A stretch of 64,000 nucleotides of DNA from an uncultured Eubacteriales bacterium (GTDB taxonomy: Bacteria > Bacillota > Clostridia > Peptostreptococcales > Anaerovoracaceae), in the NCBI GenBank assembly GCA_949285555.1, contig CASDYG010000001.1:124001-188000 (forward strand), written 5' to 3'. Of this stretch, positions 40,257-46,072 are shown in pieces. The translations under genes and the position numbers were made by a program. Each line of letters starts with the position of its first letter. The first letter of the stretch is position 1. The notes below the pieces were generated by a model that made no database searches, was not told where the DNA came from, and was given only the letters and a program-made list of their open reading frames with translations.

Positions 40257-41609
40257 TTATCCTTCTAATGAATCACTACTATTATTAGAAGATATAAGCT
40301 CTACATCTTCTTCGGAATAATCTAACACATCCACTTTATCAAGCTTTTTGCTTAATGCTCTGGTTCTCACGCCCACCAGCTTCTCTAGGTCCTCATGAGC
40401 TTTTTCTATTCTTCCCTGAGCCTGAGTAAGGGCTTCTCCAAATTTTCCAAACTCAGTCTTTATCTCTGAAAGAAGTGCCCACACCTCACTGCTTCGCTTT
40501 TGTATAGCAAGGGATTTAAAGCCCATATGAAGACTATTTAGGATTGCAACCATAGTCGTAGGTCCTGCAAGAGTAATGCGATACTCTTCATTGAGCAGTT
40601 CCAAAAGGCCCATTGATATTGCTTCCGAGTAAAGTCCTTCTGTAGGCAAGAACATAATAGCAAAATCTGTAGTATGCGGCGGATTTACATATTTGCCGCG
40701 AATATCTGCAGCTTCTTTTTTAATTGTACTTGCCAGTTTTTTTCGGCATGAATCAATTAAATTTTTATCCTGGTTTTCATAAGCATCCATTAAGGCTGCA
40801 TAGGTATCTCCTGGGTACTTTGAATCAATAGGAAGATATATAAAATTATCATCACCCGCTGGCATTTTTATTGCATAATCCACCCTAACTGTTGCACCTG
40901 GCCAAAGCTGTGCCTGTTCCTCAAATTGAGCATATGAAAGTATTTCTTTAAGAATATTTCCAAGCTGTATTTCACCAAATATTCCTCTATTTTTAACATG
41001 AGTAAGTACCTTTTTTAAATCACCTACGCCAGTCGCAAGATTTTGCATCTCACCAAGTCCACGTTGCACCTGTTCAAGACTTTCATTAACAATACGAAAG
41101 GATTGACTTATTCTCTCCTCGAGGGTCTTTTGAAGCTTTTCATCTACCATGCTTCTAAGATGATTTAGCTGCTGATCCATGGTCTGTCTTATGGTGTCCA
41201 TTGCACGTGTATTTTCAGTGTACATTTTGCCAAGAGAGTTATTCATAGCATTATGTATATCTCTCATTGAGTCCATGCTATTTTTGTTCATGGAAGAAAG
41301 CACTTCATTCATTGCAAAAAGTCTGTCGCCTTGAACGTCTGTCATCTGTTTGATGCCACTTTCAAAGCTTTTCATACTTTTATCTATCATGAAGCTAATG
41401 CTATTTACTCCCTCCTTGCTTATAAGATTAATTTCATTTTTAGCAGCATTAAGCTCTCCCTGCATATTTCTGATACCATCTTCAAAAATTCGTGATGTTT
41501 CACCATTTCTATCCTTATTTCTTCTTAATACATAGAAGGTTAAAAATAGATTTATACCAACAAGAATTAGGATGACTATTAAAATAGGAAAAAGTATTTC
41601 TACCCTCAT
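40257..41609 (-). CDS. rmuC: DNA recombination protein RmuC homologue
   Basis: RmuC limits inversion and recombination at short repeats and carries a predicted nuclease-like core. The 450-residue protein has an N-terminal membrane helix (about 6-28), a long coiled coil (about 30-180), and the RmuC domain with 'RGIFGEIQLGNILKEIL', 'YLPIDSKYPGDTYAALMDA', 'DFAIMFLPTEGLYSEAI' and 'AGPTTMVAILNSLHMGF'. An acidic tail rich in Glu, Ser and Asn follows. AAGGGGG precedes the ATG. It sits 8 nt behind the four-domain shikimate gene. Confidence 0.93.
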   Translation of the reverse strand: MRVEILFPILIVILILVGINLFLTFYVLRRNKDRNGETSRIFEDGIRNMQGELNAAKNEINLISKEGVNSISFMIDKSMKSFESGIKQMTDVQGDRLFAMNEVLSSMNKNSMDSMRDIHNAMNNSLGKMYTENTRAMDTIRQTMDQQLNHLRSMVDEKLQKTLEERISQSFRIVNESLEQVQRGLGEMQNLATGVGDLKKVLTHVKNRGIFGEIQLGNILKEILSYAQFEEQAQLWPGATVRVDYAIKMPAGDDNFIYLPIDSKYPGDTYAALMDAYENQDKNLIDSCRKKLASTIKKEAADIRGKYVNPPHTTDFAIMFLPTEGLYSEAISMGLLELLNEEYRITLAGPTTMVAILNSLHMGFKSLAIQKRSSEVWALLSEIKTEFGKFGEALTQAQGRIEKAHEDLEKLVGVRTRALSKKLDKVDVLDYSEEDVELISSNNSSDSLEG

Positions 41610-41617
41610 ATTCCCCC

Positions 41618-43489
41618 TTATATATCTTTTATAAAATCTAATGCCTCAATGTATGCGTTAAACACAGAACCCTTTATAACTTTAGTCATATTATCAGCCA
41701 TTATCGTCTTAGGTCCATACTCAGCTCTTGTTTCTGCCTGAGCAATATGCACCTCTACAGCTGGCAATCCGACTATAGAAATCGCATCGGCAATTGCAAG
41801 TGAACTGTGACCAAAGCCTGTAGGGTTCATAATTATTGCATCATATGCTCCCTTGGCCTGCTGTATAGCCTCTACAATTTCACCCTCGTGATTAGACTGC
41901 ATGAAGCTGACATTTATGTTTCTGTTTCTGCCTTCCTCTGATACCTCTTTTACCATATCTTCATAAGTAAGCGTTCTATCGTCTTCAATGGATATTTCCA
42001 TCAGATTCATGTTTGGACCACTTATTACTAACACATTTTTCTTTAGATCCATCTTATTTTCAAGCTGCATATTGGACCAGCTCTCATAAAGATTTTTTCT
42101 ACGCTCATAAACGCCTTTAATACCATCTCTGACATAAATTGGTCTATCTGCTACCTGAATTTTACCCAGATCACGCTTTACCCAAATTACAATTCCATTC
42201 TGACGCAGCAGCTGTCTATTCTTTTCTTCTTCTACTATTCCGCCTCCTGTTGATATGACCATACCCATTTCCTTTGAAAGCTCTTTGAGAAGCAGATTCT
42301 CCATCACTCTGAATCTGGATTCACCATGCTCCCTGATAAATTCCTCAGGCGTCTTTCCCTGATCCAAAGTGAATATATAGTCAGTATCCATAAATGGCAT
42401 CTTATGTTCACGGGCAATACGTCTTCCAAGAAAGCTTTTTCCAGCACCAGCCATGCCAATTAGCACTCTGTTTAACAATACGGAGAGCACTTTATCAATA
42501 GTACGTTCTATATCATCTACTGAAATATGACCTTTGCACAATATGGATGCCGTTTTACCGCACTGTGCTATAAACATCTCTAATCCTGTAGCAGTTTTTA
42601 TTCCCCGATCCTCTGCATCCATAATCAGTTTTGTTCGATATGGATTATATATAAGATCACAGACTGCACTAAGCTTCTTAAATCGGCTTATATCAACCGG
42701 GGATTCACCGTTATTTGGATAAGCTCCAACAGGAGTAGTATTTACTAGTATTTCAGCATCCTCATGCCTTTCAATGTTTCCATAATTATTTTCACTGGTT
42801 CTAGAAATCTTATAGACATTGGCAGCACCCATATCAGTTACAACGGCACTTACCGTATCAGACATTGGTCCTGTTCCTAATATTACAACTTTTTTACCTG
42901 CAACATCAATTTTGAAATGCTCAAGCATATAATGAAATCCAAAATAATCTGTATTATAACCTGTTAGTGTACCATCCACTTCACGCTTTAAAGTATTTAC
43001 ATTGCCAAGTGCATAGCACTCAGGTGCTAGCTGATCACACCAGTCGTATGCCAGTTTCTTATATTTGCCTGAAACGTTAAATCCTTGATATACCAAGCTG
43101 TTCAAATACTCTTTAATCCTATCCTCAGATGCTTCAAGAATAGAATAATCATAGTCTCCCCAGTAGCTATGAACCCTAGTAGGCAAGTTATCAGTTTTTT
43201 TGTCAGTGAGGAGAGCAAATGAGCCTGTTCTTATTATCTGATCCTGCAATTCTTTAGATGAATCTATTATTGCTCTAAAAGTAGCAGCGTCATAGATGCT
43301 AACCTTTGAAAGTATATCCTCTTCTCTTTTTTGATTTTCTACTGGCAGTCCCTTGCTTTTCTTTAACTTGGCAATTTCTTTTATAACAGCTCTTCTCTGT
43401 TCCAAAAGATGCATGAGCTGATTATCAATTCTGTCAATATCTCTTCTTGCCTTATCTAACGACGTTGGCTTATCAAACTTCTTTTCCAC
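41618..43489 (-). CDS. Four-domain shikimate protein: chorismate mutase, AroE, AroK and type II 3-dehydroquinase
   Basis: One 623-residue protein joining four shikimate/aromatic activities. About 11-88: AroQ-class chorismate mutase (ARRDIDRIDNQL, KLKKSKGLPV, QKREEDIL). About 90-322: shikimate dehydrogenase, with Lys144 in NVSGKYK, 'GNVNTL' and Asp181 in 'GYNTD', but no SLSP shikimate-binding motif. About 340-478: shikimate kinase, P-loop GMAGAGKS 345-352, Asp368/Asp370, Arg392/Arg394, 'STGGGIV', 'ADRP'. About 485-623: type II dehydroquinase with GPNMN 491-495, 'SNHEGE', Asn555, His561, His581 and Arg588, but the lid Arg/Tyr are not apparent. The start is GTG with GGAGG. One nucleotide separates it from aroC. 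Domain calls are firm; full activity is not. Confidence 0.88.
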   Translation of the reverse strand: MEKKFDKPTSLDKARRDIDRIDNQLMHLLEQRRAVIKEIAKLKKSKGLPVENQKREEDILSKVSIYDAATFRAIIDSSKELQDQIIRTGSFALLTDKKTDNLPTRVHSYWGDYDYSILEASEDRIKEYLNSLVYQGFNVSGKYKKLAYDWCDQLAPECYALGNVNTLKREVDGTLTGYNTDYFGFHYMLEHFKIDVAGKKVVILGTGPMSDTVSAVVTDMGAANVYKISRTSENNYGNIERHEDAEILVNTTPVGAYPNNGESPVDISRFKKLSAVCDLIYNPYRTKLIMDAEDRGIKTATGLEMFIAQCGKTASILCKGHISVDDIERTIDKVLSVLLNRVLIGMAGAGKSFLGRRIAREHKMPFMDTDYIFTLDQGKTPEEFIREHGESRFRVMENLLLKELSKEMGMVISTGGGIVEEEKNRQLLRQNGIVIWVKRDLGKIQVADRPIYVRDGIKGVYERRKNLYESWSNMQLENKMDLKKNVLVISGPNMNLMEISIEDDRTLTYEDMVKEVSEEGRNRNINVSFMQSNHEGEIVEAIQQAKGAYDAIIMNPTGFGHSSLAIADAISIVGLPAVEVHIAQAETRAEYGPKTIMADNMTKVIKGSVFNAYIEALDFIKDI

Positions 43490-43490
43490 C

Positions 43491-44555
43491 CTATTCCTCC
43501 ATTAATAAATCCGTTATTACAAAAATGCTGGCTGCTCTTACAACCTCCGGCACTCTGAGTACATATGCGACATCATGACGTCCTTTTATTGTTATATCTT
43601 CATTTTTCATATTACCTAAATTTATAGTTTTTTGTGTCTTTCCAATAGATGGTGTAGGCTTAAAATAACAATCGAAGAAAATATCCTGTCCGCTACTTCG
43701 TCCGCCTAAAATTCCTCCCTGCTTATTTGAAAGAAATGAGATAATTCCATTATCAGTTATATGCAATGAATCATTTGCATCGCTACCTAACATATCTGCC
43801 ACTTCTATCCCTTCCCCGAAGCTAATTGCCTTCATACCTGGAATAGAAAACATCATATGAGAAAGCAATCCTTCAAGCGTATCCATCATTGGTTTTCCCA
43901 TACCAAGTGGTGGATTCTTGATAAGGCATCTTACCACTCCTCCTACAGAATCTCCTGATGTCTTAACGTCTTTCAGCAGCTGCTGCCATTTTTCTTTATC
44001 TTCTTCACCACCAAGCCTTATAAGCTCTGCAAAAATTTCTATTTCATGCTCCTTTAAAGCCGCTTCACATATAGCTGCTGCTACCACTAAAGGTGCAGTA
44101 AGTCTTCCAGAATTATGTCCACCGCCCCTTCGCACTTCATCCATATCAATGCCTGCATACAAAGCTTTATACATAAGTGGAAAATCTGCCGTACCAGGAC
44201 GAGGCATCCCACTAAGACTATCATAATCATTGCTATTTTTGTGCGTATTTTTAATTATAAATGCTAAAGGTGCACCATTGGTTTTTAACACTCGTTTACA
44301 CCTATTAGCATCAGGACTATCAATAGTACAATCATCAGATTCTACTACACCCGATAAAAATATCACCTTATCTTCCTCTATTCTTTTAGTGACGTATTGC
44401 TTTCCTCTTGGTGATCTTTTTTTCAGTCCATCATCTATCTTTTTTTCATCTATTAACATGCCCATTGGAAGGCCTTCAATTACGCCACCTATTGCCGGTC
44501 CATGGGATTCTCCAAAAATGGTCAGTTTAATATTTTTACCAAAGGTACTAGACAA
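43491..44555 (-). CDS. aroC: Chorismate synthase
   Basis: AroC makes chorismate from EPSP with reduced FMN. The 354-residue protein has the signature 'IFGESHGPAIGGVIEGLPMG' at the start, 'RRGGGHNSGRLTAPLVVAAAI' (seen as RRGGGHNSGRLTA) and the C-terminal 'KQGGILGGRSSGQDIFF' with 'GRHDVAYVLRVPEVVRA' close behind. The start is TTG at 44555 with AAGGAGG 5 nt upstream, inside the end of aroA (34-nt overlap). It is flanked by aroA and the four-domain protein, giving a shikimate operon. Confidence 0.96.
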   Translation of the reverse strand: MSSTFGKNIKLTIFGESHGPAIGGVIEGLPMGMLIDEKKIDDGLKKRSPRGKQYVTKRIEEDKVIFLSGVVESDDCTIDSPDANRCKRVLKTNGAPLAFIIKNTHKNSNDYDSLSGMPRPGTADFPLMYKALYAGIDMDEVRRGGGHNSGRLTAPLVVAAAICEAALKEHEIEIFAELIRLGGEEDKEKWQQLLKDVKTSGDSVGGVVRCLIKNPPLGMGKPMMDTLEGLLSHMMFSIPGMKAISFGEGIEVADMLGSDANDSLHITDNGIISFLSNKQGGILGGRSSGQDIFFDCYFKPTPSIGKTQKTINLGNMKNEDITIKGRHDVAYVLRVPEVVRAASIFVITDLLMEE

Positions 44556-46072
44556 AGCCCCTCCTTATTTCCAGTTTTTTTATATTCTACTTCAAATAAT
44601 CCACATTCAAGGCATTGACTTAAAAGCTCAGAATAAGACTTATTAAGTCCCTCTGGATGACACACTAATACACTCCTATGAAATAATATACCGCTTGCCA
44701 TTGCCAGCATAATAATTCTATGATCCTCAGATACACATTCTATCATCTCATCTTGCTTACCTTCAAAATCATATTCATATCTTCTAATAAGTAAGTTTTT
44801 CTTGTGTTCTTCAATACTTGCCACATCAGATAAGATGTTTCTTATTCCCTCTATTCGGTCAGACTCCTTATGATGTAATATGTCGATATTACATAAGTAC
44901 AAATTAATATCTAAGTATATACCTAAAAGTGCAATAAGATGTACACTGTCTGGAAAACTACTACAATCAATTTTCAAGCATTTATGAGAAAAGCTCCTAT
45001 CACAACCAACATTAGAATCTTTTTTATTAATTTCATTATCATAAATAAATCTTTTTATATATTTTGATTCTTTATATTCACCATGATATTTACCTCGGGC
45101 TATTTTTGCCATATACTTAAAAAGTTCACAAGCATAAAAGTCACCTTGATATCCTATATCTGGCCTATTTTCTAATTTCGTATTAAATTCGATACCAATT
45201 CTTTCGCCTTTACTATTATAAAAGTCTTCACCATTATTTGCGGCCATTATAACCATCCAAAAAGCAGCGGATGAATAGTCAATAGGATGATTGAAATTTA
45301 TATTGTTGTTAGTATTATCATTATCCTTTTCTCCACTACTAGTTGCAAGCAAACTAAAAGTGGTTATATCGCTGGATGAAACATCATAGTAAATTCCATA
45401 ATTTTCTAAAAGTGCAAGTGTAAACCTTACATACGAATATGACGGAATATTCCCCGATACAGCAATCTTTGTAGCTGTATCCCCCATACATCCCATTATC
45501 ATAAGAAGCGCTGATAGCTCCTGTGAGGTTTTAATATCCTTAAGTAATATCACTTTATTTTGATGTGAATATGTAATTTCACAATTTTCTATTCCGTTAA
45601 TAGGTCTATTATAAAGTCTTCCATTTACGGTAAATTCTGTTTTTATTCCGATGATATAACACAGGCACACAAAAAACCGAAGCGTTGTTCCACTTTCACC
45701 TACTGCCAGCTTTAGTGTATGACTTGAGAAATAGTCTCTAAAAAACTCTTCTCTACTTTGCTTCAAATGGTCGCCTTTACATGACGTTTTTCTATAGTCA
45801 TCCCACTTGTAGGTAGCAGTTTTAAGATGTTCTAAAAAAGCCATGACACAACTAAGAGTATGCCTGACATCATCACAGCTTTTTCTAGCAATATTTTCAA
45901 TGTCAGTATCTATTGCTGATTCTGTAGCTTCGTATAGACCCATGAAGCTTCCATATTCGTCTATACAATACCTGTTGTAAAATATAATCAAATCTATAAA
46001 AAGTTTTCTATGAATATATGATTTTGATATAGGTAGTATGACAGTATAGGCTTTGCGTTTAGAAATCTTCAT
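44522..46072 (-). CDS. aroA: Divergent, long 3-phosphoshikimate 1-carboxyvinyltransferase (EPSP synthase)
   Basis: The 516-residue protein is about 80 residues longer than usual EPSP synthases (about 430) but keeps the family's key sites: 'PISKSYIHR' (phosphate/Lys-Ser-Arg site), 'GESGTTLRFF', 'LYNRPI', 'TSQELSALLM', the catalytic-Asp region 'FPDSVHLIALLG', 'HHKESDRIEGI' (Lys-Glu-Ser-Asp-Arg), 'SEDHRIIMLAMA' and 'LNKSYSELL'. Extra segments lie after the first motif (about 25-115), in an Asn/Asp-rich loop near 250-270, and near 285-355. It overlaps aroC. No clear ribosome site precedes the ATG. AroA with odd insertions is the best reading; a paralogous enolpyruvyl transferase is less likely given the operon. 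Confidence 0.85.
   Translation of the reverse strand: MKISKRKAYTVILPISKSYIHRKLFIDLIIFYNRYCIDEYGSFMGLYEATESAIDTDIENIARKSCDDVRHTLSCVMAFLEHLKTATYKWDDYRKTSCKGDHLKQSREEFFRDYFSSHTLKLAVGESGTTLRFFVCLCYIIGIKTEFTVNGRLYNRPINGIENCEITYSHQNKVILLKDIKTSQELSALLMIMGCMGDTATKIAVSGNIPSYSYVRFTLALLENYGIYYDVSSSDITTFSLLATSSGEKDNDNTNNNINFNHPIDYSSAAFWMVIMAANNGEDFYNSKGERIGIEFNTKLENRPDIGYQGDFYACELFKYMAKIARGKYHGEYKESKYIKRFIYDNEINKKDSNVGCDRSFSHKCLKIDCSSFPDSVHLIALLGIYLDINLYLCNIDILHHKESDRIEGIRNILSDVASIEEHKKNLLIRRYEYDFEGKQDEMIECVSEDHRIIMLAMASGILFHRSVLVCHPEGLNKSYSELLSQCLECGLFEVEYKKTGNKEGLCLVPLVKILN

Follow-up and report, generated by a model that had tools for sequence, protein, structure and literature searches.

A four-domain chorismate mutase, shikimate dehydrogenase, shikimate kinase and type II dehydroquinase chain in a genus of Anaerovoracaceae, with two domains predicted to be inactive or impaired in one species

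Pieces of the chain described here are already known from other systems. The Clostridium acetobutylicum protein 3FBT carries, according to its depositors' title, a chorismate mutase (CM) and a shikimate dehydrogenase (SDH) in one chain, as is found here, but it holds these two enzymes only, shikimate kinase (SK) and dehydroquinase (DHQ) being present only in the chain we describe. An AroE-AroK fusion has been reported in Methanomicrobiales and in two bacterial assemblies (PMC11237513, in excerpt), which joins SDH and SK as here but without CM and DHQ. In Aro1 of Candida albicans, substitutions in the active site have inactivated the fused type I DHQase, for which a standalone type II enzyme compensates; inactive Aro1 domains and the standalone gene occur together in Candida species (PMC9074039, in excerpt). 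Both Aro1 and the present chain are multi-step shikimate fusions with a dead DHQase, in our case a predicted one, accompanied by a standalone enzyme of the other type, with the two types swapped here; Aro1 has five domains whereas our chain has four. AROM covers steps 2-6 with a type I dehydroquinase, and neither AROM nor Aro1 is known to include a CM. By Pfam, domains for DHQ synthase, EPSP synthase and type I DHQase are all missing from the chain examined here, which thus departs from the fungal protein in domain order, in DHQ type and in content, as an earlier note on this DNA had maintained. No CM-SDH-SK-DHQ chain was described among the best title and abstract matches of a literature search, which left most subscription papers outside.

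The DNA analysed is a stretch of 64,000 nucleotides (the window) from contig CASDYG010000001.1 of assembly GCA_949285555.1, an uncultured bacterium of the family Anaerovoracaceae whose genome is referred to as G000 and those of its four congeners as G001 to G004. The coordinates and the single uninterrupted 623-codon frame given in the earlier note were correct, and the strand, on which it was silent, is the minus strand; the plus-strand translation of 41618-43489 is full of stops and the minus strand holds a stop-free ORF of 623 aa. A GGAGG motif lies just 5' of the GTG start, which is separated by one base from the aroC stop. The placement of the fusion in an aro operon between aroC and rmuC was likewise borne out, with aroA, aroC, the fusion and rmuC all on one strand of the window (ORFs and Pfam). 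The features are as follows.

41618..43489, minus strand, CM-SDH-SK-DHQ fusion gene, 623 codons, GTG start (ORF translation, Pfam, congeners)
43253..43447, minus strand, chorismate mutase (AroQ/CM_2) domain, aa 15-79 (Pfam; catalytic residues)
42482..43219, minus strand, shikimate dehydrogenase domain, aa 91-336 (NCBIfam models, 5DZS/3FBT alignment, residues)
42044..42481, minus strand, shikimate kinase domain, aa 337-482 (Pfam; 11 of 11 catalytic positions checked are kept)
41621..42043, minus strand, type II dehydroquinase domain, aa 483-623, predicted inactive (Pfam, residue comparison, model)
43178..43189, minus strand, site of the lost SxSP shikimate-binding motif (reads NLPT; congeners SLSP or SISP)
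41969..42001, minus strand, degenerate DHQ lid loop, aa 497-507 (congeners REPEIYG or REPDIYG)
43491..44555, minus strand, aroC, chorismate synthase, directly upstream of the fusion
44522..46072, minus strand, aroA, EPSP synthase, 516 aa, very divergent (conserved active-site motifs present)
40257..41609, minus strand, rmuC, gene directly downstream of the fusion

The four domains were found in the order claimed. On the window protein the Pfam profiles CM_2 (49.7 bits against a cut-off of 27, aa 15-79), SKI (107 bits against 22.1, aa 348-479) and DHquinase_II (111.9 bits against 23.3, aa 486-620) exceeded their cut-offs; the fourth profile proposed for this search, Shikimate_dh_N (PF08501), stayed below its own (24.1 bits against 27, aa 112-167), and the SDH domain was assigned from NCBIfam and structure matches. 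NCBIfam SDH models matched within aa 113-335 with up to 131 bits. Among the best 25 of 53 NCBIfam matches all SDH and DHQ models lay below their own cut-offs, including the SDH models TIGR00507 (107.7 against 200.2) and NF001322 (131.4 against 285) and the stricter type II DHQ model TIGR01088 (107.5 against 169.85). The closest solved relatives of the SDH domain were the C. difficile SDH 5DZS and the C. acetobutylicum CM/SDH fusion 3FBT, whose chains made up the top five Foldseek matches with TM-scores by target of 0.82-0.86, indicating the SDH fold. All of the best 50 Foldseek rows were SDH or SDH-like proteins, some of them carrying another domain as well; for the CM, SK and DHQ folds the basis is therefore sequence and model confidence. 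The AlphaFold model of the window protein, made with a 52-row alignment, had a mean pLDDT of 90.4; the lowest internal ten-residue blocks were 491-500 in the DHQ lid (59) and 581-590 in DHQ (67), followed by 251-260 in SDH and 501-510 in the DHQ lid (71 each).

The four domains were present in one stop-free frame in all five genomes of the genus, the other four proteins being 49-51% identical to that of the window, and the stop codons or frame breaks between domains that the earlier note had named as refuting the fusion were found in none of them. Because the same frame recurs in 5/5 genomes, chance or misassembly is an unlikely origin for it and was set aside. We sampled 197 genomes of the family (188 with any match) and 391 of the class (354 with any match), two samples which overlap, and among the stronger matches listed those that ran stop-free over all four domains were confined to this genus. 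A candidate from another family (G352), matched over aa 2-621, was rejected as a second four-domain chain when it resolved into a CM-SDH-SK gene and a separate DHQ gene. The chain was also absent at seven loci from named genomes, of which L014, L015, L017 and L018 have separate genes apart from CM-PDT (PDT, prephenate dehydratase) and SDH-SK, L016 is arranged likewise, CM being undetected there, and L019 and L020, which lie at contig ends, include only a portion of the gene run. The contig at L017 is labelled as a Treponema sp. bin and carries a clostridial-type aro operon, by binning error or by transfer. A tblastn search of plasmids with the fusion returned 588 records, one of which matched 80% or more of the query at a single location. 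The earlier note had named a widespread and well-characterised architecture as an outcome that would refute it; this does not apply to the complete chain and applies in part to its pieces.

In many relatives the gene order is aroA, aroC, CM or CM-PDT, SDH-SK and DHQ; in others aroA, CM or DHQ has moved or one of them is absent from the stretch read. Since the operon of relatives keeps the same gene order as the domains, what had been called a scrambled order is operon order. The 138 chains that hold both SDH and SK, after removal of those with an SDH-SK part of less than 300 aa, comprised 102 SDH-SK, 20 CM-SDH-SK, 6 AroC-CM-SDH-SK, 5 AroC-SDH-SK (with a CM perhaps too diverged to detect) and 5 CM-SDH-SK-DHQ chains, shares that are not frequencies because the class loci in the set are best matches. 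SDH and SK were separate in one genome (L167). Single frames spanning CM-SDH (for example in G532 and G202) and SK-DHQ (G231, G396) were seen in the class match listing alone. On the SDH-SK tree, at least 13 changes of state were needed for N-terminal fusion, 5 for AroC fusion and 1 for DHQ fusion, a count which cannot separate gain from loss and in which 40 of 135 inner branches are open. The five four-domain rows formed one clade (SH-aLRT 100) joined to eight SDH-SK-only rows (SH-aLRT 88), and in the sister-group genomes G008 and G175 a CM frame of 94-95 codons, present besides CM-PDT, lies just upstream of SDH-SK; an extra CM frame of this type is a likely source of the fused CM. This comparison shows that the genus-wide fusion was formed through loss of the gene boundaries between aro operon neighbours, joining along the chain a CM, an older SDH-SK fusion and a DHQ. 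Operon order, together with the fusion of each joint elsewhere in the class, argues for one of many operon collapses and not a one-off; of the proposed independent bacterial solution, the distinctness from AROM stands. Open frames of 852-918 codons encoding AroC-CM-SDH-SK were observed at five loci from other genera of the family (L090, L094, L157, L176, L180), a different multi-enzyme from the same operon with chorismate synthase included.

Conservation of the active sites was compared by a leave-one-out procedure in which each domain was scored for the share it keeps of the columns conserved in at least 90% of the other rows; domains covering less than 75% of the profile and loci L037, L067, L073 and L074 were dropped, and tallies at named positions exclude the two standalone rows G000std and G004std, the standalone AroE row being misaligned at S14/S16. 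The window DHQ kept 29/48 conserved columns (0.60), the lowest of 54 with the next lowest, G002, at 0.84, and the window SDH kept 35/43 (0.81), the lowest of 115 with L117 next at 0.82. In the DHQ domain Arg19 is replaced by Ser, Tyr24 by Arg and Arg112 by Gly, each position being kept in 53/54 domains with the window as sole exception. The Arg that closes the R-E-x-[FY]-R motif is here taken as Arg112 and the one that opens it as Arg108; Arg108 is kept along with N12, N75, H81, E99 and H101. The lid Arg19 and Tyr24 have been named essential in type II DHQ (PMC6011038, in excerpt), and in the C. glutamicum enzyme Ala at Arg19 or Tyr24 left almost no activity and Ala at Arg112 left none detectable (PMC10772564, in excerpt); the window domain has none of these three residues. 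The same source reports that Ala at His81 abolishes activity (PMC10772564, in excerpt). His81 is kept in the window and in 50/54 domains and is Tyr in congeners G001-G004, where no other DHQase was found by Pfam for type I or by a search with the fusion protein for type II (the Pfam type II search covered the window's own genome only), which shows that substitution at a site of this kind does not necessarily imply inactivity.

For the SDH domain we assumed a numbering in which Lys65 and Asp102 are the catalytic pair and Ser14 and Ser16 (SxS) bind shikimate. Lys65 and Asp102 are kept in the window, as are Tyr215 and Gln244, and both serines of the shikimate-binding SxS are gone (S14 to Asn, S16 to Pro). 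None of the other 114 domains lacks both, and the one further change at these two sites in the set is an S14 to Thr. Thr61 is further replaced by Ser and Pro63 by Lys, and the NADP loop reads GTGPM instead of GTGGA. We therefore predict from residue comparison that the window DHQ domain is inactive and the SDH domain impaired, and with three DHQ residues and the SDH shikimate-binding serines lost and the NADP loop altered, a working four-enzyme chain is unlikely in the window species. What is new here is that this DHQ stands alone among 54, and this SDH alone among 115, with such residue losses.

The other two domains look intact. The window CM kept 7/7 conserved columns and has R11, R28, K39, R51, E52, S84 and Q88, with Asn at D48 as in 15/86 domains; the window SK kept 23/25 columns (7th lowest of 114) with all 11 catalytic positions that were checked. 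The CM residue set is presumed to follow E. coli numbering, and the SK numbering and roles are assumed likewise. The neighbouring AroC kept 62/69 columns (6th lowest of 90) and AroA 41/53 (lowest of 33). AroA is 516 aa in length with long insertions, in which the SKS, (T)SQ, KESDR, DHR and KS motifs are all present; the genome search with PF00275 gave two partial matches of 24 and 18 bits, where congeners reach 170-191, and the whole protein scored 45 bits. In a quick tree the window AroC forms a long branch that falls outside the AroC of the congeners. That the chain as a whole has become a pseudogene is disfavoured by the open frame and by the codon-position GC of the CM, SDH, SK and DHQ domains, which resembles that of neighbouring genes.

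A type I dehydroquinase (AroD) and a standalone SDH (AroE) were each found in one of the five genus genomes, in both cases that of the window. The two genes, at G000:C1:34023-37002, are 1.3 kb apart; an MFS-like gene, recognised by weak model matches only, separates them, a three-gene TRAP transporter follows, and a 666-aa flavoenzyme and two LysR-like genes, the latter named by eye, precede them. The standalone SDH passed two curated models, shikimate dehydrogenase (536 against 431 bits) and quinate/shikimate dehydrogenase (358 against 349). In E. coli ydiN-ydiB-aroD a transporter, a quinate/shikimate dehydrogenase and a type I AroD adjoin in the same way, to which the window genome's cluster adds the TRAP transporter, the flavoenzyme and the two LysR-like genes. 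The flavoenzyme is related to BaiCD-type enzymes. The whole cluster (L065 4993-14881, G000:C1:29992-39880) is a candidate for the uptake or the reduction of hydroaromatic acids and may be catabolic only.

A second instance of a damaged fused domain was seen in G004: among 114 SK domains, R58K and G80E occur in its fused SK alone. The operon of this genome no longer contains aroC, and a pair of AroC and SK genes, the SK intact, is located on a different contig; this standalone SK falls outside the five fused SKs in the tree (99 support), where the placement of its AroC is unresolved. Extra SK-like proteins occur in the five genus genomes, and that of G004 alone keeps F-R and G-G-G. Those of G000-G003 were rejected as standalone SK, having F-A or F-W where shikimate kinases have F-R, and those of G000 and G003 scored best with a homoserine-kinase model, below cut-off. 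The three clear damaged fused domains of the genus (DHQ, SDH and SK) are thus each accompanied by a standalone enzyme, a pairing drawn from five genomes in which two cases share one cluster and which H81Y, if it is damage, breaks.

DHQ synthase was present in 5/5 genus genomes, with the window-genome AroB passing its curated model (314 against 305 bits). DAHP synthase (PF00793) was found in four of the five and was not found in the window genome, which is 90% complete (class II, PF01474, lay outside the search). In G001 and G002 it stands directly before aroB, with the flanking genes of the window genome on either side of the pair, and G004 shares the upstream neighbour with the window genome and has a different gene downstream; in the window genome itself (L079, G000:C4:119813 region) the upstream flank is 76 bases from aroB, within the contig, and DAHP synthase is absent. 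No prephenate dehydratase was found in the five genomes, nor any prephenate dehydrogenase (TyrA) over cut-off. A weak PF02153 match in the window genome proved to be glycerol-3-phosphate dehydrogenase, and G004 has a weak match below cut-off. The CM domain of the genus is therefore without a known prephenate consumer among the genes found.

We favour, with a probability of roughly 0.6, a genus-wide operon fusion which in the window species has an inactive DHQ and an impaired SDH, both activities being supplied in trans by AroE and AroD, with possible import. In the other four species the chain can plausibly still serve steps 3, 4 and 5 and chorismate mutase, with the caveat that SK is damaged in G004 and that DHQ His81 is Tyr in all four. 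The window chain would most likely work as a CM-SK protein with an inactive DHQ and a damaged SDH, and the unlinked AroE and type I AroD of the MFS/TRAP cluster would supply the two lost steps. We thus read it as a multi-enzyme that is losing those active sites for which standalone enzymes stand in, a counterpart of Candida Aro1 with the types swapped. The missing DAHP synthase and the transporters beside AroE and AroD suggest that shikimate or quinate may be imported and passed through SK, AroA and AroC to chorismate instead of being made de novo, which is the weakest step of the proposal; the retained AroB is hard to explain without DAHP and counts against a finished switch to import. Among host-associated bacteria, shikimate pathways are often incomplete (91/295 proteomes; PMC3018139, in excerpt). 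The window lineage is fast-evolving in other genes too, which we counted against the damage reading: window-to-congener branch ratios were 3.4 for AroB, 3.0 for AroA, 2.9 for the gene after rmuC, 2.8 for another EPSP-family protein (probably MurA) and 1.2 for AroC, compared with 2.0 for the whole fusion (DHQ 4.1, SDH 2.0, CM 1.9, SK 1.3). The SDH residues retained (Lys65, Asp102, Tyr and Gln) and an SDH score just under that of L117 count against it as well, and the open frames and the confident model (pLDDT 90) suggest that some function is probably kept.

Taken further, the pairing of damage with standalone enzymes could be read as modular decay across the genus, in which any fused domain with standalone cover loses its site, combined in the window species with a switch to imported shikimate or quinate and with a dead DHQ kept as an assembly core; this combination as a whole we consider unlikely. 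It is likewise doubtful that decay extends over the entire pathway of the window species, with aromatics obtained from host or neighbours and the fusion eroding along with several other genes. The lack of a detected DAHP synthase, of PDT and of TyrA over cut-off, the lowest-ranked AroA and the long window branches of AroB and AroA all fit such decay; the open state of every frame, the complete set of AroA motifs, the neighbour-like codon-position GC of each domain and the SK and CM catalytic positions that were checked, kept except for CM Asp48 (Asn in 15/86), speak against it.

A fully working chain, in which SDH and DHQ are altered yet active and the standalone AroE and AroD serve only quinate/shikimate breakdown, appears quite unlikely. 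The open frame, the intact CM and SK sites, the SDH Lys/Asp pair and the six retained DHQ residues (N12, N75, H81, E99, H101, R108) are in its favour, and the standalone pair beside transporters resembles a catabolic cluster, but the domain lacks three DHQ residues that are critical in Ala mutants, its lid motif can no longer be recognised, SDH has neither of its two serines and the two domains score lowest of 54 and of 115. Retention of the DHQ domain after catalytic loss as an assembly module is the least probable reading: the domain is in frame and modelled as folded, type II DHQases are dodecamers (shown for C. glutamicum and said of other known ones; PMC10772564, in excerpt) and would hold a CM/SK array together, and an inactive DHQase domain mediates the dimer in Candida Aro1 (PMC9074039, in excerpt), but the DHQ branch ratio is the highest of the four domains, which fits relaxed and not maintained constraint.

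Domain-level annotation overstates this chain, since a profile match over cut-off can cover a site without its catalytic residues. Across the family and class the aro operon grades from unfused genes up to the four-domain chain, and with such a series both the route from operon neighbours to a multi-enzyme and the fate of a fused domain with standalone cover are testable within one set of relatives.
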